Below, one piece after another: positions 351 to 20,755 of a stretch of 60,327 nucleotides of DNA. Numbering within the stretch: the stretch's first letter is position 1; every line of letters starts with the position of its first letter. The position numbers were made by a program, and so were the translations under genes. The notes under the pieces are model-generated. The model ran no database searches, was not told the origin of the DNA, and worked only from the letters and a program-made list of their open reading frames with translations. Source of the DNA: a virus. The stretch lies in IMG/VR virus record IMGVR_UViG_3300008113_010061, positions 1 to 60,327 of that record; one strand, 5' to 3'.

Positions 351-1277
351 ATGTTTAATTTTTCTGTGTATAATGCTGCGGGTGTGGAAGTTGATCGCCA
401 CAGCATCAACGATGAATTGACCTATGTCGATGGTCGTGTACATCGAGGCAAGAATTGCTACTACAAGGGTGTGGGTGTGCCTTATACGCAGCATACCCTG
501 GATCGATCTGCAATTCCAGATCTCACCGAGTATGAAGTATTGTGCGACTCCAATCTGATCTACATAGGTCCGGTGGTGAGCAAACGATGCTTTGTTGGAA
601 AAACCGGAGTATTTCAGGAACTCTATCAACCCTTCTATCCAGACTTCATTGGTAGCTGCAGCATCAAAGAAGGGCTCATAGTAATAAATTCACTGACCTT
701 TGAAAAGTCCTCGGTGGAAGTTTTTGACTGCATAGAATTTGATAAACAAAACCAGCAGCACTACTACATACTGGACTACAACTGTGGCAGACGGCATTAT
801 GCTGTGCATGATGGTAAACCACAGGATCTGCGTGAGCTCGTGGATTTTATGCTGCAAAATAATTGGAATTTTCTCTGGGACAAGCAGGCCATCAAAGACA
901 TAACAGCCGATGGTCGTGTCAGTGATGTGGCAGATCTATTTCAGTCCAATGAACTAAAGCATAAACTAGGTACTGTGTATGCTGTATTGTACAGCCTGGG
1001 CAATTTGTATCCTGAAAAATATCAGGAATTTCTGCGGTACATGGATTTGAAACATGAGAGCAATCTATCCTATGTACTGAATTCCCTGCTGATACTACGA
1101 GACAACAATGTGGACATCACACCATTGTTGCCCACAGGTTCTATGTCAGAGAACTACAAGCATACGGTCAGAGAATTTTTACTGCAGGGCAAGAATTGTG
1201 CACACTGTGCCTGCGATTTGTTTAAACATCAGGGCGATCAGGTTCGAGATAAATATTTGGCCGCACTGGAGTTTTAA
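351..1277 (+). CDS. Hypothetical protein, 308 aa
   Basis: A 308-residue soluble-looking protein with no signal peptide or membrane segment. I recognise no domain. It is rich in aromatic residues (many Tyr and Phe), and a cysteine cluster CAHCAC lies at about residues 283-288 and might bind metal or form disulphides. The second half looks helical. It begins 3 bases after the small upstream gene and ends just before the tmRNA acceptor piece, so the tmRNA may be co-transcribed with it. Base composition matches the surrounding phage genes. Function unknown. Confidence 0.65.
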   Translation: MFNFSVYNAAGVEVDRHSINDELTYVDGRVHRGKNCYYKGVGVPYTQHTLDRSAIPDLTEYEVLCDSNLIYIGPVVSKRCFVGKTGVFQELYQPFYPDFIGSCSIKEGLIVINSLTFEKSSVEVFDCIEFDKQNQQHYYILDYNCGRRHYAVHDGKPQDLRELVDFMLQNNWNFLWDKQAIKDITADGRVSDVADLFQSNELKHKLGTVYAVLYSLGNLYPEKYQEFLRYMDLKHESNLSYVLNSLLILRDNNVDITPLLPTGSMSENYKHTVREFLLQGKNCAHCACDLFKHQGDQVRDKYLAALEF

Positions 1278-1281
1278 GATA

Positions 1282-1600
1282 TTGCTGTATGAAGCAACCT
1301 GAAATGGGTTCTGGACGCGGGTTCGACTCCCGCCTGGTCCACCAGAAGTGTTGTTTAGGGTGGTATGTAGGAGTTTAACAAGACTCCGAGGACTGGAATT
1401 CCCGACCTGTGAACAGCAGGACACTTCTGATGGGCCAGACATGGTTTCGACAGGGTCAGGAGTAGGCGAGTGGACAGCACGGTAGGCGATGACCGTAAAT
1501 CAAGCAAATCTATAAATGCAAATGACGAAAGTTATGCATTAGCCGCCTAAACACGGCTTAGGGTTTCGCCGGGTTTCCTCGTAACAGAATAACCCGGCAA
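1282..1600 (+). ncRNA. ssrA: Circularly permuted (two-piece) tmRNA
   Basis: tmRNA with SmpB frees stalled ribosomes and adds a degradation tag. Here the 3' half is encoded first. The acceptor piece holds a T arm (stem GCGGG 1317-1321 with CCCGC 1329-1333, loop TTCGACT), the 3' acceptor strand CTGGTCC (1334-1340) and ACCA (1341-1344). The coding piece starts with GGGCCAG (1432-1438), which pairs with CTGGTCC over 7 bp. The third pair is G-U, the alanine identity element. The tag frame runs from the resume codon GCA (1518) to TAA (1548-1550) and encodes ANDESYALAA. CCTAA (1546-1550) pairs with TTAGG (1558-1562) around the stop, as in helix 5. TCAGG (1456-1460) can pair with CCTGA (1298-1302) as part of helix 2. 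The segment 1345-1431 should be cut out. Permuted tmRNAs are known in alphaproteobacteria, cyanobacteria, some betaproteobacteria and a few phages. The outer ends are estimates. Confidence 0.93.
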
Positions 1601-1607
1601 ATTTTTT
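1568..1607 (+). terminator. Rho-independent terminator after tmRNA
   Basis: GCCGGGTT (1568-1575) pairs perfectly with AACCCGGC (1591-1598) across a 15-base loop and is followed by AATTTTTT. It ends the tmRNA transcript and may also form the 3' end of the mature coding piece. Confidence 0.75.
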
Positions 1608-1614
1608 ATAAATA
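1607..1614 (+). promoter_or_regulatory. T4-type late promoter TATAAATA
   Basis: This is an exact match to the T4 late promoter box read by the gp55 sigma factor with gp33 and the sliding clamp. It follows directly on the tmRNA terminator and precedes pstS-oprP with the same polarity, so it would start a new transcript about 75 bases before pstS. Confidence 0.55.
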
Positions 1615-1620
1615 TATTGG

Positions 1621-1639
1621 CTGGTAATTGAACGGTAAT
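1621..1639 (+). promoter_or_regulatory. Pho-box-like direct repeat upstream of pstS (tentative)
   Basis: CTGGTAAT (1621-1628) and ACGGTAAT (1632-1639) repeat with an 11-bp period, the spacing of PhoB half-sites (CTGTCAT in E. coli). The match in sequence is only partial. Cyanophage pstS genes are known to be under host PhoB control, which is why this is worth noting. Confidence 0.2.
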
Positions 1640-1695
1640 ACGCCTGCGTCTAAATATTATAGTACACAGTTGTGTACCTTTATAAGGGCGCAGTA

Positions 1696-4707: not shown

Positions 4708-5265
4708 ATGCTGAACAGACACATTGTTCGACGTTTTTTAGTTAGTGCCACGTTATTTTCCGTATTTGTAGCCGGCATCAATACACTGTATCAAACTCAG
4801 GCGCAGGCTCGCATGGCCCAGGAAATCCAAAGCCAACGCATTGCTGCCGAGCGCACCAAAAAGAAATTGGTAGAAGCCAAACTCAATCGCGAAATTACCT
4901 GCATGGCTCGCAACATCTATTTTGAAAGTGCCAGCGAGCCCATCAAGGGCAAGATTGCCGTGGCTCAGGTCACCATGAACAGAGTCAACAGCGGTCAATT
5001 TCCTGCATCGGTCTGCGGTGTTGTACACCAAAAGACTCACTACGAAGGTTTGACTGTATGTCAGTTCAGCTGGGTCTGTGAAGGCAATTTGAAGATTCGC
5101 GCACCGCATCTCTATGAAGAAAGTCTGCGCGTAGCTCGTCGCGTCATGCTGGATGGTGTGCGTCTACCAGAACTGCAGGGTGCCAAATACTTCCATGCTA
5201 CCTATGTACAGCCTGGTTGGAATAAACAACCCAAGGCTCGCATTGGTAACCATATTTTCTATTGA
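4708..5265 (+). CDS. Cell wall hydrolase, SleB family (probable endolysin)
   Basis: SleB-type hydrolases (Hydrolase_2 family) cut peptidoglycan as lytic transglycosylases. In this 185-residue protein the catalytic domain spans about 63-185 and shows the family signatures MARNIYFESASEP (catalytic Glu region), IAVAQVTMNRV, FPASVCGVVHQK, CQFSWVCEG, and a final IGNHIFY. Residues 9-27 are hydrophobic (FLVSATLFSVFVAGI), so it is either a signal-anchor (SAR-type) endolysin that needs no holin pore or a periplasmic lytic enzyme; a helical linker follows (30-60). Start: ATG with AAGGAG 7 bases upstream. A strong promoter overlaps its stop codon. The three-helix holin on the other strand could be its partner in lysis; that is inference. 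Confidence 0.85.
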   Translation: MLNRHIVRRFLVSATLFSVFVAGINTLYQTQAQARMAQEIQSQRIAAERTKKKLVEAKLNREITCMARNIYFESASEPIKGKIAVAQVTMNRVNSGQFPASVCGVVHQKTHYEGLTVCQFSWVCEGNLKIRAPHLYEESLRVARRVMLDGVRLPELQGAKYFHATYVQPGWNKQPKARIGNHIFY

Positions 5266-10959: not shown

Positions 10960-11289
10960 TTACTCTTTGGGTGTGTATACTCGGTTGTCATCATCGTCCT
11001 TGCTGGTGGCCGATGTCTCGGTTACAGCAATCTTTTCCTTGGTGCGACCATAGGCCGACACACCCAACACACCGCCCATGGCAATATGGAAGAAGCCTCC
11101 ATTCTGCAGCGTTATGGGCACCCATTGACGAAACGCATCATTGGCTGCTTCGGTCTCCCAGAATTGTACTAGGGTGAACAGGACCGGAAAAATTACAAAG
11201 TCTGCCAAGCAACAGACCATGTACATCCAGCCCATGGCAGGACGCCATTTATTCTGCATCCAATCTTCTTTAGTAGTTCCAGCTGCCAT
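10960..11289 (-). CDS. Three-helix holin (GTA/HP1-type 3TM)
   Basis: This 109-residue protein starts MAAGTTKEDWMQNKWRPAM, with a strong Shine-Dalgarno site (AAGGAGG) upstream; I prefer this to an earlier in-frame ATG 28 codons upstream, which lacks one and would overlap the gp51-like frame. Two clear membrane segments (about 20-42, MGWMYMVCCLADFVIFPVLF; and about 70-88, GGFFHIAMGGVLGVSAYG) and a weaker one between them fit the 3TM holin family first seen in gene transfer agents and HP1-like phages. The motif KWRP(A/L) before the first helix is typical. The end is acidic (SKDDDDN). It would open the inner membrane at lysis. Its place inside a tail-assembly cluster is odd. Start codon overlaps the preceding stop (TAATG). 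Confidence 0.75.
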   Translation of the reverse strand: MAAGTTKEDWMQNKWRPAMGWMYMVCCLADFVIFPVLFTLVQFWETEAANDAFRQWVPITLQNGGFFHIAMGGVLGVSAYGRTKEKIAVTETSATSKDDDDNRVYTPKE

Positions 11290-11477
11290 TATCGGCCTCC
11301 TTGTTGTTGTAAACGTTGATTTTCTTCTTCTAAGTGATTTACCAACAACATAATATAGATCTCCCTTTCCCACGGCATCATGTCTTCCAATTCAGACAAG
11401 CTATACTTATGATACTGCATTAAATTGAAGTTTGTCTGATAGTAACTAAACAAACTTTCATGAGAAAGGACTAGGCG
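11289..11477 (-). CDS. gp51-like tail/baseplate assembly protein, -1 frame extension of gp26
   Basis: The reading frame one base back from gp26 stays open for 62 codons past the gp26 stop and codes for a helical segment with YHKYSLSELEDMMPWEREIY and LEEENQRLQQQ. Short proteins of this pattern follow gp26 in marine T4-like phages and are called gp51 (baseplate hub assembly), although T4 gp51 itself is much longer. No start codon with a ribosome-binding site is found: the only ATG is 19 codons in and has none. The frame can be reached from gp26 at the slippery site 11483-11477, giving a fusion of about 292 residues. This resembles the G/GT tail assembly chaperones of lambda, which help fold the tape measure. 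The stop overlaps the holin start by one base. Confidence 0.7.
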   Translation of the reverse strand, partial: RLVLSHESLFSYYQTNFNLMQYHKYSLSELEDMMPWEREIYIMLLVNHLEEENQRLQQQGGR

Positions 11478-15736: not shown

Positions 15737-17069
15737 TAAGGATGGCGTTCAAACCGCTGGTGATGTAAAAGTTGAAGAAGCTATTATTGTCAAAGACAAC
15801 AACGAGCAGCTTGATATTCGACAGCTCATAGCAGAAATCAACATTTTTGAAGACATGTTTAAAAATGGTTTGTATGGCAACATCATGTTGATCGATGCCG
15901 GTAATTTTGCCAGCAGGTTTCCCATTGTTGGCAATGAATACATTAAATTGAAAATTGTCACACCTGGCCTGCCACAGATAATTTACAAGACCTTCAAAGT
16001 CTACAGCATCACGGATCGCATGGTGCTCAAGGATACTGGAACACAAAGTTATCTGCTGCACTTTTGCAGCATTGAATTGTTCATTGACATGCTGGTGCCA
16101 GTGTACTCCCACTACAAGGGTCCGGTGTCCAAGATTGTGCAGGACATCTACAAAGAGCGGCTGGCAGTGCCACGCGTGGGCGGCAACGAAGAAGATTTTA
16201 CGCCATTGATCGTTGTTGGTGAAGCCGACAATGAAATATCGTTTACCAGTCCGGGTTGGCATGCCACACACTGCATCAACTGGTTGGCCAGTCGATCCTT
16301 GCCGCAGGGATTGAAATCGCCGGCATACTTGTTCTATGAAACAACCCAGGCATTTTATTTCGCCAACATTGAACGCATAATTGAAATGGCAGTAAATGAT
16401 AAGTCCATATACTATGAATATAACTACGTACCCAACAACCTTTCTGCGGATCAGCAGGGCAACTATGTAAAAGACGTGGAAAAGGAATATAGAAAGATTG
16501 AAGAGTTAGAGATTGTTGAAACCTTCAATGCCTTTAAAAATACCAACAATGGTTATTATGCCAATCGTCTGGTTACCCTGGACGTTATATCTAAAAAATA
16601 TGAGATAATTGATTACGATCACGTTGCCAGCTATGGTGAATATAAACATCTAGAAGACATTTCCAAGTCTGGAGCACTGGCTCCATTCAACAGCACTACA
16701 TTACGCGGCCCTAGTAGTTTAACGCAGTTTTATCCCAAACACGCAAAATTATTCAATGACGCAGAAACCAATGCCAATGATATCATAGATAAAACTCTGC
16801 CCCGCAGAATCAGTACTTTGAATGAGCTGGGCAATTTCAAGATGGTGATCACCGTACCAGGTCGCACCGATGCTGAGGTTGGCAGCATAGTCTACATAAC
16901 CTATCCAGATGCACAGCCCAAGGATCAGAGCGATAAAGCCAAGACTGGTGAAGATCCGTTGTTCAGTGGATTTTATCTGGTGACTGCCATACGGCATAAA
17001 ATAACATTGATTAAACACATGATGATCATGGAAGTTGTAAAAGACTCGTATCGCAAGGAAAAAACATGA
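15723..17069 (+). CDS. gp27: gp27-like baseplate hub protein
   Basis: This 448-residue protein sits between gp53 and gp5 and has hub features: IRQLIAEINIFEDMF, LYGNIMLIDAGN, FPIVGNEYIKLKIVTP and YKTFKVYSITDR, then YLLHFCSIELFIDM. This is the standard start of gp27-type hub proteins, which form the trimeric torus that holds the gp5 spike. The end, PLFSGFYLVTAIRHKI, matches the second tube-like barrel of such hubs. T4 gp27 has 391 residues. The gene overlaps both neighbours (gp53 by 14 bases, gp5 by 4), a sign of translational coupling. Confidence 0.75.
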   Translation: MANDNKDGVQTAGDVKVEEAIIVKDNNEQLDIRQLIAEINIFEDMFKNGLYGNIMLIDAGNFASRFPIVGNEYIKLKIVTPGLPQIIYKTFKVYSITDRMVLKDTGTQSYLLHFCSIELFIDMLVPVYSHYKGPVSKIVQDIYKERLAVPRVGGNEEDFTPLIVVGEADNEISFTSPGWHATHCINWLASRSLPQGLKSPAYLFYETTQAFYFANIERIIEMAVNDKSIYYEYNYVPNNLSADQQGNYVKDVEKEYRKIEELEIVETFNAFKNTNNGYYANRLVTLDVISKKYEIIDYDHVASYGEYKHLEDISKSGALAPFNSTTLRGPSSLTQFYPKHAKLFNDAETNANDIIDKTLPRRISTLNELGNFKMVITVPGRTDAEVGSIVYITYPDAQPKDQSDKAKTGEDPLFSGFYLVTAIRHKITLIKHMMIMEVVKDSYRKEKT

Positions 17070-19855
17070 ATGATAATATTTTTGGTCGTGACGGATTTTA
17101 TTGGTGGATTGGTGTGGTTGAAGATCGCAACGACCCAGAAAAAATAGGTCGTTGCCGTGTACGCATTCTGGGCTATCATATTGATAACAAGGATACCCTG
17201 CCCACCGCAGATCTGCCCTGGGCCATACCCATGCAGAACATCAACAGCGCTGGCATCAGCGGCAAGGGCAGCGCACCTGTAGGACCCTTGGAAGGCAGCT
17301 GGGTCGTAGGTTTTTTCCTGGATGGTAAAGACAAACAACAGCCCATGATCATGGGCACCATGGGAGGTCTGCCCGACAAAACCACAGGGTGTGCCACTCA
17401 AGAAACCAACACCGCAAACAATAGTTCCAATGTACTGCGTGATGGTGGTGGCAATGTGGTTAACGACGGCAGTGGTAATCCTGTGCGTACTGATCAGGGT
17501 ACTGCGGTTCCAGCCCAACCTGCTCCTACCAATCAAAAGATTCAAGAGAATCTGGAAAAAATAGTTTTGGCCTGTAAAAAGCAGGGCATAACCAATCATT
17601 ATTTCGTGGCAGCTGTCATTGCCAATGCGCTCAAAGAAGCCGGCGGCAAAACCATAGCTGAATTCAGTTATCGAGGCACAGACTATGCTAATCTGAAAGT
17701 CATTTTTGGTGGTCTGAGATTAAGTAAACATACTCCAGAAGAGTGGGAAAACGAGATTAGAAAAGACGACATACGATTTTTTGATCTCATGTATGGTCTG
17801 ACCTGTGCAGATCGAAGCAAGCCCGAAGGTTTCAAACACTTTGCAGTTGGTGACGGATTCAAGTATCGTGGGCGTGGCTTCATACAATTTACTGGCAAGA
17901 GTTTATACAGCCGTCTAAGTCAGATTGCCTATGGCGATGAAAGATACGTCAAAAATCCTGATCTGTTGCTGGACCCCGAAAACGCAGCCCAGGCTACTGC
18001 AGCCTTTATGAAACTCAGCATACAATCTGGTACAGCCATGCGGCTCACCGGAGTAAGTTATCCGCCGACATCGCAGGCCAATGCCGACCTGCTGGTCACC
18101 AGCATGGTGGCGGGCGGTGGAGATGTGCGTAAGTATGAACAGGGAAGAAAAATTCTGGCCAAAGTTAATGGTTATTCACCCAACTATACCGTGGGTGCTA
18201 GCCCTGGTGGTGTACGCGTAGCTGAACTGCTGGGTCAACCCGGAGGCACACCTCCCAATGATGTCAAACCCAATACTGCGCAGCCTGATCCACAGACCAC
18301 ACCGCCCACAGAAAGTCTGAACGATCCACGTCTGGGCAACCCACCGGCTTTTTCAGATCCCAACAGTGTGTATCCCAAGTGTGATTATACTGACAGACCC
18401 GACACCAATAAACTAGCCACGGGCGATACCGAAGGCACCATAGTTGAATCCAAGAATCGAGACCGCAGTCTAGGCATAAACAAAGCCAATGGTGGTAGCT
18501 GGGATGAACCAGATTCGGCATACTGTGCACAATATCCGCACAACCATGTCATTGAAAGTGAAAGTGGCCATGTCATAGAAATGGATGATACGCCAGAACG
18601 TCAGCGACTACACATCTATCATCGCGCCGGAACCTTTGTAGAAATTGACCAAAACGGCACCTGGGCGCAACGAGTCAAGGGCGATTACTACGGGGTGTTT
18701 ATTCGCAACAATCGAGTCTACATCAAGGGCGACTATGATGTCACAGTGGACAATGCCACGCGCATACGAGCCAACGATGTACTAGAAATCGAAGTTGCCG
18801 GCAAAACCACCATCAATGTTAAAAACGATGCCAACATCAACGTAGCTGGCAGTCTCAAGGCTCATGCCAAAAATATCTACATGGAGGCTGACACCGATGT
18901 TCACATCAAGGCTGGCAGCAACATGTATCTGCAGGCCGGACAGGCCATGAACATCAAGTCTGGTGGTGGCATGGCGCTGGATGGCAGCAGAATAGATCTC
19001 AATGATGGCGTAGCCGTGGCTGCTACTGCCACGGGACTTGGCACCTTGGAAACTGCGGTGCCCACGAACAATCCGCTGACTGATTTAGATCGCCCAACCT
19101 GCGACAAGGCCATAGAAGAACGTAGCTCAGGTGATGCTGGCGAAAATCCACAAAAACAAGAAGAAGATGTAAAGACTGGTAAAAAGACTCAGGAACAAGT
19201 TGATCGTGGCAAGGAAATTGCTCAGGCTGGGTGTAAACGATCTGATACCAAGGTTCCCATCATTGTTCCACCCGCACCATATAAAACCGGAGAGTTTGCA
19301 AATTATCGCGAAACACCGATGAGCATACAACTCAGTGCCAATTTCAATCTTTTAACTCTGGCAGAATGTGGCAGCAGCAGCAAGACCGACAACAGAAGAT
19401 TCTGGGCCAGTGCACCAGGAACTCTGGGCAACGGTTTAACCAAGTCGCAGCTGTTGGACAATCTGCGTGGTCTGTGCGTCAATGTCTTGGAACCCATTAA
19501 ACGTCGTTTCCCACAGATGTATTTGACCAGCTGTCTGAGATTTGGTCCCAAGGAAGCACAACACGGCGAGGGACTGGCAGCAGACATGCAGTTTGGTGGC
19601 GGACTGGCTGCACCGCAGTTGTATGATGCAGCCCTATGGATTCGCGACAACGTAGCCTATGATCAATTGTTGTTGGAATATGGTACCTTCGGTGGTGTAT
19701 TCCAGGGCTGGGTACACTGCAGTTTTAATCCCCGTGGCAATCGAGGCGTAGAAGGGCGTAACGGTTATCCCAAGGTAGCAACCTTCATGGATCACAACAT
19801 TGCACGCGGAGCTGACGGTAAACAGAAACTCTATTTGTGTGATTTAAGTCGATGA
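17066..19855 (+). CDS. gp5: gp5 spike with GH19-like and M15-peptidase-like domains
   Basis: gp5 is the cell-puncturing spike. This form has 929 residues (575 in T4). Domains in order: OB fold (about 4-103, GFYWWIGVVEDRNDPEKIGR); a GH19 chitinase/lysozyme-like domain (about 158-375) with KEAGG (Glu191 probably catalytic) and YRGRGFIQFTG (268-278); a linker; a beta-helix needle of short repeats (about 490-650, e.g. HVIEMDD, YIKGDYDVTV, KAGSNMYLQ); and a C-terminal domain (about 750-929) with TSCLRFGP, QHGEGLAADM (H833, D840) and WVHCSF (H884), the zinc ligands of M15 D,D-/L,D-peptidases. T4 has one GH24 lysozyme here. Two different cutting activities, on glycan and on peptide, are therefore likely. 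Start overlaps the hub gene (ATGA). Confidence 0.9.
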   Translation: MNDNIFGRDGFYWWIGVVEDRNDPEKIGRCRVRILGYHIDNKDTLPTADLPWAIPMQNINSAGISGKGSAPVGPLEGSWVVGFFLDGKDKQQPMIMGTMGGLPDKTTGCATQETNTANNSSNVLRDGGGNVVNDGSGNPVRTDQGTAVPAQPAPTNQKIQENLEKIVLACKKQGITNHYFVAAVIANALKEAGGKTIAEFSYRGTDYANLKVIFGGLRLSKHTPEEWENEIRKDDIRFFDLMYGLTCADRSKPEGFKHFAVGDGFKYRGRGFIQFTGKSLYSRLSQIAYGDERYVKNPDLLLDPENAAQATAAFMKLSIQSGTAMRLTGVSYPPTSQANADLLVTSMVAGGGDVRKYEQGRKILAKVNGYSPNYTVGASPGGVRVAELLGQPGGTPPNDVKPNTAQPDPQTTPPTESLNDPRLGNPPAFSDPNSVYPKCDYTDRPDTNKLATGDTEGTIVESKNRDRSLGINKANGGSWDEPDSAYCAQYPHNHVIESESGHVIEMDDTPERQRLHIYHRAGTFVEIDQNGTWAQRVKGDYYGVFIRNNRVYIKGDYDVTVDNATRIRANDVLEIEVAGKTTINVKNDANINVAGSLKAHAKNIYMEADTDVHIKAGSNMYLQAGQAMNIKSGGGMALDGSRIDLNDGVAVAATATGLGTLETAVPTNNPLTDLDRPTCDKAIEERSSGDAGENPQKQEEDVKTGKKTQEQVDRGKEIAQAGCKRSDTKVPIIVPPAPYKTGEFANYRETPMSIQLSANFNLLTLAECGSSSKTDNRRFWASAPGTLGNGLTKSQLLDNLRGLCVNVLEPIKRRFPQMYLTSCLRFGPKEAQHGEGLAADMQFGGGLAAPQLYDAALWIRDNVAYDQLLLEYGTFGGVFQGWVHCSFNPRGNRGVEGRNGYPKVATFMDHNIARGADGKQKLYLCDLSR

Positions 19856-20055
19856 AATCGGAATTTGTACTCATGGTCAACGGCGAACTGCGCAGCTATG
19901 AGCGCTGGGAAGACATACCTGAAAAATTTGATCATGTCATTAAATTTAAACCATACTTACCCGAACCACCACATACTGCGGAACAGCATGCGGAAATTGA
20001 AAACTGGATGCCCAGATTTCAGGAACTCATGCAGCGTGAACGCAGTCAACAATAA
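19852..20055 (+). CDS. Conserved small protein of T4-like phages, 67 aa
   Basis: The protein contains FVLMVNGELRSYERWEDIPEKF and FKPYLPEPPHTAEQHAEIE. Small proteins with the pattern DIP..FDHVIKF.P..PEPPHT occur next to the spike gene in marine T4-like phages; their role is unknown. It overlaps the gp5 stop (ATGA) and precedes the PAAR gene by 11 bases, so it may help spike assembly. Confidence 0.7.
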   Translation: MKSEFVLMVNGELRSYERWEDIPEKFDHVIKFKPYLPEPPHTAEQHAEIENWMPRFQELMQRERSQQ

Positions 20056-20066
20056 CAGGACACAAC

Positions 20067-20357
20067 ATGCCAGCTGCTGCTAGAATTGGTGACGCCGATC
20101 TTGTACATTGTTCATTGCCGCATCGAGCCGAGGGATCGCCCACGGTGTTTGTCAATGGCATTGCCTGGAGTCGTCAGGGCGATAACAATGATCCACATTT
20201 ATTTCCCGGTGCTGTTTGTCCTAATCATCAGGCGTCCATAGCCGTGGGTTCTACCACGGTGTTCATCAACGGCAAGGGTGCGGGTCGCATCGGCGACGCC
20301 ATAACGGCCTGTACTGCGGTGGCAGAAGGTTCACCTAATGTGTTCTGCGGAGGATAA
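20067..20357 (+). CDS. PAAR-motif spike tip protein (gp5.4-like)
   Basis: PAAR proteins cap the spike with a sharp zinc-stabilised cone. The 96 residues start MPAAARIGDADLVHC and show the alternating PAAR strands: GSPTVFVNGIAWSRQGD, GSTTVFINGKGAGRIGDAI and EGSPNVFCGG. Zinc ligands are probably among H14, C15, H19, H44, C51, H54 and C82. T4 gp5.4 has 97 residues. Start: ATG with AGGA 8 bases upstream. The place between gp5 and gp25 is as expected. Confidence 0.9.
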   Translation: MPAAARIGDADLVHCSLPHRAEGSPTVFVNGIAWSRQGDNNDPHLFPGAVCPNHQASIAVGSTTVFINGKGAGRIGDAITACTAVAEGSPNVFCGG

Positions 20358-20365
20358 ATAATAAA

Positions 20366-20755
20366 ATGGCACGAGGATCTCGAACTTTTTCTGACCTAGA
20401 TGCGGCATTTACATTGACGCCGCGTAGTCGCGATGTGGCTAACAAGACTGACGACAATGCCATACGCGGAGCTCTGCGCAATCTGATTCACACCAAGCAT
20501 TATGAACGACCCTTTGCTCCGGAACTTGGGTGTCAGATACACAATCTGTTGTTTGAACCCAATGATTTTTTCACCAGAAACATAGCAGAACGCATCATAC
20601 GCGATGCCATAACCAAGTTTGAACCCCGCGTAGAATTGATTGAAGTTTCAGTATACAGCACCGATGCCAATGAGTTGTTCATACAAATAGAATACAAGAT
20701 ACGCAACACCAATCAGCCCGGTGTCTTTACAACAACATTTACCCGAGTACGATAA
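20366..20755 (+). CDS. gp25: gp25 baseplate wedge (sheath initiator)
   Basis: gp25 resembles a sheath handshake domain and primes assembly of the gp18 sheath. The 129-residue length compares with 132 in T4. Features: FSDLDAAFTLTPRSRDVANKTDDNAIRGALRNLI, HYERPFAPELGC and FEPNDFFTRNIAERIIRDAI, the most conserved block, with the EPR of FEPRVELIEVSV, the signature of GPW/gp25 proteins. Its stop overlaps the gp6 start (TAATG). Confidence 0.95.
   Translation: MARGSRTFSDLDAAFTLTPRSRDVANKTDDNAIRGALRNLIHTKHYERPFAPELGCQIHNLLFEPNDFFTRNIAERIIRDAITKFEPRVELIEVSVYSTDANELFIQIEYKIRNTNQPGVFTTTFTRVR

Follow-up and report, generated by a model that had tools for sequence, protein, structure and literature searches.

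A T4-like central spike with predicted GH19 and M15 wall-degrading domains in an environmental phage

Introduction

In phage T4, the central spike protein gp5 consists of an OB fold, an inner glycan-cutting domain (a GH24 lysozyme) and a trimeric beta-helix stem with which the protein ends at residue 575, and the PAAR protein gp5.4 makes the tip (PMC4576200, also for the domain limits). Gp5-like spikes with other inner enzymes are already known, and a possible M23 peptidase has been described in CBB_250, a gp5-related OB-fold protein of the RaK2-like phage CBB, where it occupies the middle of the protein and its function is uncertain (PMC5259590). For the combined cutting of glycan and peptide by a contractile machine there is a tested parallel in TseP, an effector of the type VI secretion system (T6SS) of Aeromonas dhakensis (PMC11893102). 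Here we describe an open reading frame at positions 17066-19855 of a viral DNA stretch of 60,327 nucleotides (hereafter the window; positions 1 to 60,327 of IMG/VR record IMGVR_UViG_3300008113_010061). It is a T4 gp5-type central spike in which OB fold, GH19 domain, stem, long linker and M15 domain follow each other in this order. We think it quite probable that this protein serves a T4-like contractile-tailed freshwater phage as a drill with two enzymes, the activities, the position in the virion and the part played in entry being read from comparison with described systems.

Little is known of the way in which T4-like phages that infect uncultured bacteria of fresh water and the sea get through the cell wall. 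With two enzymes on one spike, and a tip peptidase found repeatedly beside exchangeable partners, this entry step can be tested domain by domain. A literature search of incomplete coverage found no paper on a gp5 spike with GH19 and M15, nor on a PAAR-M15 fusion.

Organization of the spike protein

The spike and its parts are as follows, residue numbers being those of the encoded protein.

17066..19855, plus strand: whole gp5-type central spike reading frame, 929 amino acids, ATG at 17066 and stop at 19855 (PHROG 430)
17066..17410, plus strand: OB-fold domain, residues ~1-115 (Pfam Gp5_OB, PF06714, E 8.8e-19, above the curated cut-off)
17543..18181, plus strand: GH19 endolysin-type domain, residues ~160-372, predicted catalytic E191, E199 and T276 (PDB sequence matches, AlphaFold model, fold match)
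18356..19015, plus strand: predicted triple-stranded beta-helix stem, residues ~431-650, limits approximate (PHROG 27932 and other gp5-type profiles)
19028..19300, plus strand: linker, residues ~655-745, placed by alignment between the stem and the folded C-terminal domain
19313..19852, plus strand: M15 (LAS/hedgehog-fold) zinc-peptidase domain, residues ~750-929, zinc triad H833, D840 and H884 (alignment, model, fold match; PHROG 894)

The first-pass annotation had taken this protein for a gp5 spike, and its identity is borne out by the Gp5_OB match, by PHROG 430 (baseplate hub and tail lysozyme), which matches the 929-residue protein with E 6.8e-81, and by its PAAR, gp25 and gp6 neighbours in the baseplate region. 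In a PDB sequence search the T4 gp5 structure 1k28 matched residues 10-154 (E 1.4e-33). Within the stem, a segment strongly conserved in the alignment of gp5 relatives, PHROG 27932 covers residues 482-634; other gp5-type PHROG profiles match too, and the phiKZ spike domain 6p20 gives a weak match (E 0.38). Compared with T4, the window protein shares the OB fold, an inner glycan-cutting domain, a stem (here a predicted trimer) and a PAAR tip protein, but it has GH19 instead of the GH24 lysozyme and carries an extra linker and M15 domain past the stem. Relatives of the spike were found with 71-100% identity. Its counterpart in Synechococcus phage BUCT-ZZ01 covers 98% of the protein and has the same order of domains, but with 29% identity, a cyanobacterial host and the sole label 'baseplate hub subunit'.

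The gene is set in a T4-like baseplate cluster, with gp53-like and hub genes upstream and, downstream, a short reading frame, PAAR, gp25 and gp6; tail sheath, portal and prohead protease genes are found further along the window. The genes that follow the spike are these.

19852..20055, plus strand: 67-amino-acid reading frame between the gp5 and PAAR genes (PHROG 24555, function unknown, E 3.8e-14)
20067..20357, plus strand: PAAR tip protein, standalone, 96 amino acids, no enzyme fused (Pfam PAAR_motif E 5e-13; PHROG 281 E 1.7e-23)
20366..20755, plus strand: gp25-type baseplate wedge protein, given as context (Pfam GPW_gp25 E 8.7e-19)

The inner GH19 domain

That a GH19-type domain sits after the OB fold, in the slot of the T4 lysozyme, had been proposed from the bare sequence, and this holds: a Pfam scan gave no match of the GH24 model in the window protein, and both sequence and fold lead to GH19. 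A phmmer search of the domain alone against PDB chains retrieved 8p8e (E 7.8e-8) and the SPN1S endolysin 4ok7 (E 1.7e-5). The AlphaFold model, built from 43 relatives, has a predicted local distance difference test score (pLDDT) of 87 and a predicted template modelling score (pTM) of 0.85; its fold matches are the lysozyme domain of TseP (8xcl, Z 15.2), 8p8e (Z 14.6) and SPN1S 4ok7 (Z 14.5), followed by plant GH19 chitinases with Z about 9-10. Two glutamates, E191 and E199, are conserved in the relatives, as is T276 within the motif YRGRGFIQFTG (of the GRG-x-IQ-x-T type). Presumably these three residues are equivalent to E49, E58 and T113 of SPN1S. They are predicted to be catalytic, by homology only; in TseP, the second glutamate of the corresponding pair was shown to be needed for activity (PMC11893102). 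TseP also resembles the window protein in having two peptidoglycan-cutting domains (predicted ones in the window) and in working with a contractile machine, but it is a secreted effector carried by VgrG2 and its second enzyme is an amidase, not an M15 peptidase (PMC11893102).

The C-terminal M15 domain

The first-pass annotation had placed an M15-type peptidase at the C-terminus, with zinc ligands H833, D840 and H884, and had named the lack of either the fold or the zinc site in a model as what would speak against it. Model and alignment were examined on this point, and both fold and site are present. The AlphaFold model of the domain (pLDDT 89.6, pTM 0.88), submitted to a second-look structural aligner, has as its best match 1LBU, the zinc D-Ala-D-Ala peptidase of Streptomyces albus (Z 10.1, 3.1 A over 122 residues); next come hedgehog domains with Z about 7, then VldE, LysECD7, ChiX, MepA, VanXY, VanY and LdcB, of the LAS group. 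The triad has the pattern H-x6-D ... H at the residues named, and R825, H833, D840, D866, Q867, E871, W882 and H884 are invariant in 56 relatives, free M15 endolysins among these (residue number = alignment position + 740). PHROG 894, an endolysin family, matches the domain with E 1.7e-8. It is 31-40% identical to gp5 C-termini or PAAR-fused domains of cultured phages and ~30% identical to free pelagiphage proteins annotated as peptidase M15.

Several results weigh against reading the protein as a spike with two enzymes for entry. Foldseek found no significant match of the M15 model in the PDB and ranked unrelated folds first, so that the M15 assignment rests on the second-look aligner together with sequence conservation. 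The Pfam M15 models match neither the window protein nor its parts, the Pfam GH19 model (PF00182) has no match in the protein either, and NCBIfam scans named neither family; both assignments rest on profiles, relatives and folds. Further, the HxH motif of 1LBU and the ExxH motif of VanX, one or other of which is common to most characterised M15 enzymes, are both missing, the last zinc ligand lying within GWVH (881-884), for which reason the domain is not filed under the 1LBU/VanX subtype. Finally, free M15 relatives annotated as endolysins would fit a role in lysis as well. Other searches complete this picture: no PDB chain was retrieved with the M15 domain as a single-sequence query, and a profile search gave weak matches only, hedgehog on top, with VanY and YodJ lower. 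Among aligned relatives, 11 of the 14 match Pfam PF08291 (Peptidase_M15_3) at E up to 0.1, the best at 6.6e-19, the window domain being unmatched, and a relative with the same four-part architecture (L033) does match the Pfam GH19 model (E 3.6e-7). As for the motifs, Klebsiella YcbK is likewise without both HxH and ExxH (PMC3927764). A candidate for the role of the missing motif is E871: in a profile alignment it falls on the zinc-site glutamate of sonic hedgehog, E177, a putative catalytic residue there (PMC4102407), and since it is also invariant we propose that it is probably the general base.

Purifying selection clearly keeps both enzyme domains. Compared with two relatives that are ~75% identical (L111 and L007), the M15 domain has a ratio of nonsynonymous to synonymous substitution rates (dN/dS) of about 0.09-0.11 and the GH19 domain one of 0.12-0.18; the stem gives similar values. 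These ratios are rough, as dS is high, near saturation. This bears on another interpretation, in which a single domain is catalytic on entry and M15 is a degenerate, hedgehog-like zinc protein with a task in peptidoglycan binding or in stem folding and PAAR docking. The absence of both motifs would suit it, as would the fold shared with hedgehog, whose peptidase activity was unproven as of PMC4102407; and Pseudomonas phage pf16 keeps M15 although no inner enzyme was detected in its slot, so that a structural service is conceivable. A structural role, however, would need no zinc site, and the zinc ligands, R825 and E871 are invariant even when free M15 endolysins are included; selection on M15 is, moreover, at least as strong as on GH19. 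We regard a degenerate M15 domain as rather unlikely and retain an active, putative peptidase.

Relatives, carriers and partners

A search with the M15 alignment gave more than 500 loci, of which the best 80 were examined, together with cultured phages; as the query derived from a spike and these loci match it best, frequencies among them are not population estimates. The OB-GH19-stem-M15 order is found again in BUCT-ZZ01 (ON615601), a phage of Synechococcus elongatus, and in several metagenomic phages, some of the same lineage as the window (L005-L009), others more distant (L033 and L095); in L044 and L045, OB-GH19 and stem-M15 are encoded by two adjoining genes. Elsewhere the inner partner differs. 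Caulobacter phage Cr30, Methylophilales phage Melnitz and Pseudomonas phage pf16 have gp5 systems with the same C-terminal M15 family, but the slot that holds GH19 in the window holds Phage_lysozyme2 in Cr30 (E 5.5e-29), nothing detected in pf16 and, in the separate OB gene of Melnitz (L002:2977-4038, its stem gene having the M15), a weak match to a VanY-type peptidase (E 1.2e-4, below the cut-off). A VgrG3-like muramidase takes this place in L049, L050, L058, L079 and L104 (E 7e-45 to 6e-55).

A division of gp5 into two adjoining genes is seen in L002, L028, L032, L044, L045, L049, L058, L079 and L104, where OB, in some cases joined by an inner domain, is encoded by the first gene, and stem and M15 by the second; in PhiW-14, OB is followed by GH19 and stem. 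This split recalls the cleavage of the T4 gp5 protein.

The M15 domain occurs in three settings: at the end of a gp5 or stem gene, in proteins of 250-400 amino acids, and free. The carriers of 250-400 residues that could be checked start with PAAR. A PAAR-fusion label for all of them was dropped, as L051 and L052 are stem fragments and a PAAR N-terminus is unconfirmed in many others. In loci where gp5 bears the M15 domain and the genes after it can be seen, a separate, plain PAAR gene is the usual finding (e.g. in the window, L007, L009, Cr30, Melnitz, L047, L058, L089 and L104). PA5oct-like, Aura-like, Milchi and Vibrio phages have the same M15 family at the spike tip but fused to PAAR, not to gp5; where the OB gene of such loci is visible (Vibrio 1.244 and 207E48.1, Milchi, L041, L068) it lacks M15. 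None of the loci seen has M15 on both gp5 and PAAR.

Bacterial genomes yielded no relative when searched with the full spike protein. With the M15 domain they yielded mostly free proteins of <200 amino acids, plus one gp5-type OB-GH19-M15 protein (L190). The contig that encodes the latter spike, DITO01000076.1, is binned as Erysipelotrichaceae and is probably a misbinned phage contig.

A single branch of the M15 tree splits spike-borne from free domains (Shimodaira-Hasegawa-like approximate likelihood ratio test, SH-aLRT, 100). Counted with confirmed carrier labels only, the tree needs four changes of setting among free, gp5 and PAAR, and two for each carrier are forced by well-supported branches. 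That the PAAR fusions arose only once is, however, not rejected (approximately unbiased test, p-AU 0.20), so that a switching of M15 between gp5 and PAAR is suggested, not proven. With slightly less than even confidence, we would generalize as follows: a dedicated M15 lineage of the T4-like spike tip keeps its place as the carrier (gp5 or PAAR) and the inner partner change, the spikes of environmental T4-like phages generally cut two bonds as a way of entry, and PAAR proteins of phages bear enzymes like those of the T6SS.

Entry by a spike that makes two cuts seems to be a strategy that recurs and has been little described. In databases such proteins bear names of the kind 'Protein Gp5, N-terminal OB-fold domain containing protein' or 'Peptidase M15A, C-terminal'. 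The Melnitz paper reports gp67 as the sole lysin-like gene (PMC9004378) and, according to a survey of jumbo phages, PAAR proteins of phages have no effector domains fused to them (PMC7824862). With the label of the BUCT-ZZ01 protein, these are cases in point: current annotation overlooks the spike as a place to find peptidoglycan enzymes.

A role in entry

Cutting of peptidoglycan by both predicted enzyme domains is plausible. We infer the trimerization, the position in the virion, the role in entry and the bond that the putative M15 peptidase would cut. By analogy with T4, three gp5 copies would form the spike below the tail tube, and contraction of the sheath would drive it, capped with PAAR, through the outer membrane. 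GH19, in the slot of the T4 lysozyme, could then cut glycan strands in the periplasm, and M15, held on its long linker past the end of the stem and beside the PAAR tip, could cut peptide bonds of stem peptides or cross-links, both cuts together opening a hole for the tube. The proposal, made at first sight of the sequence, that M15 lies near the PAAR tip stands in part: the tip is its most likely place, with the PAAR gene downstream after one 67-residue reading frame, but we infer the closeness itself rather than observe it. This placement is preferred because the same M15 family is fused to PAAR elsewhere and no locus seen has both copies.

The window also carries separate lysis genes, about 6 kb apart.

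4708-5265: Hydrolase_2-type cell wall hydrolase, an endolysin (E 1.7e-25)
10960-11373: GTA_holin_3TM-type holin (E 2e-8)

This speaks for a role of gp5 in entry and against another possibility, that the M15 domain on gp5 serves lysis from within. To be sure, outside spikes the closest relatives are free-standing and bear the annotation peptidase M15 or endolysin, and PHROG 894 is an endolysin family. Spike-borne M15 domains nevertheless make a clade of their own apart from the free ones, and a single gp5 trimer per virion would presumably be too little enzyme for lysis. With a separate endolysin and a holin gene at hand, a lytic task for the spike domain is very improbable, and entry remains the preferred role.

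Host and cell wall

A hint as to the host comes from a transfer-messenger RNA (tmRNA) gene.

1232-1641, plus strand: permuted tmRNA gene (Rfam betaproteobacterial family RF01850, 145 bits, E 2e-44), tag ANDESYALAA

Its type hints at a host that is probably betaproteobacterial. A phage tmRNA can be foreign to its host, as in Melnitz, which has an alphaproteobacterial type and infects OM43 (PMC9004378). A search for photosystem genes in a 167-kb relative gave a sub-threshold match only. The first-pass annotation had further suggested that the GH19 and M15 pair suits a particular host wall, so that the pair would be an adaptation to one wall type. This idea found no support: nothing specific in its favour came up, the pair is present with a cyanobacterial host and, judging from the tmRNA, with a probable betaproteobacterial one, and the inner enzyme varies freely, swapped among GH19, VgrG3-like, phage tail lysozyme and VanY-like modules. 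That a single combination spans such hosts, and that related phages have many combinations, argues against tuning to one wall, which we consider a quite improbable explanation.

Other genes of the window

Phosphate-related genes lie near the start of the window. One phage gene (2728-4134, plus strand) encodes an outer-membrane porin of the phosphate-selective Porin_O_P family (E 3.5e-49) and adjoins a gene for a PstS-like binding protein (1672-2718); the porin has no match among 50,697 phage records at E 1e-5. A phosphate uptake pair of this kind, borne by a phage, would be unusual. Beside these genes and the tmRNA, a reading frame at 351-1277 (plus strand) has a weak match to alkaline phosphatase (E 0.0046), and the phage records contain a single relative of it, a hypothetical protein from Synechococcus phage S-CREM1, with 44% identity.

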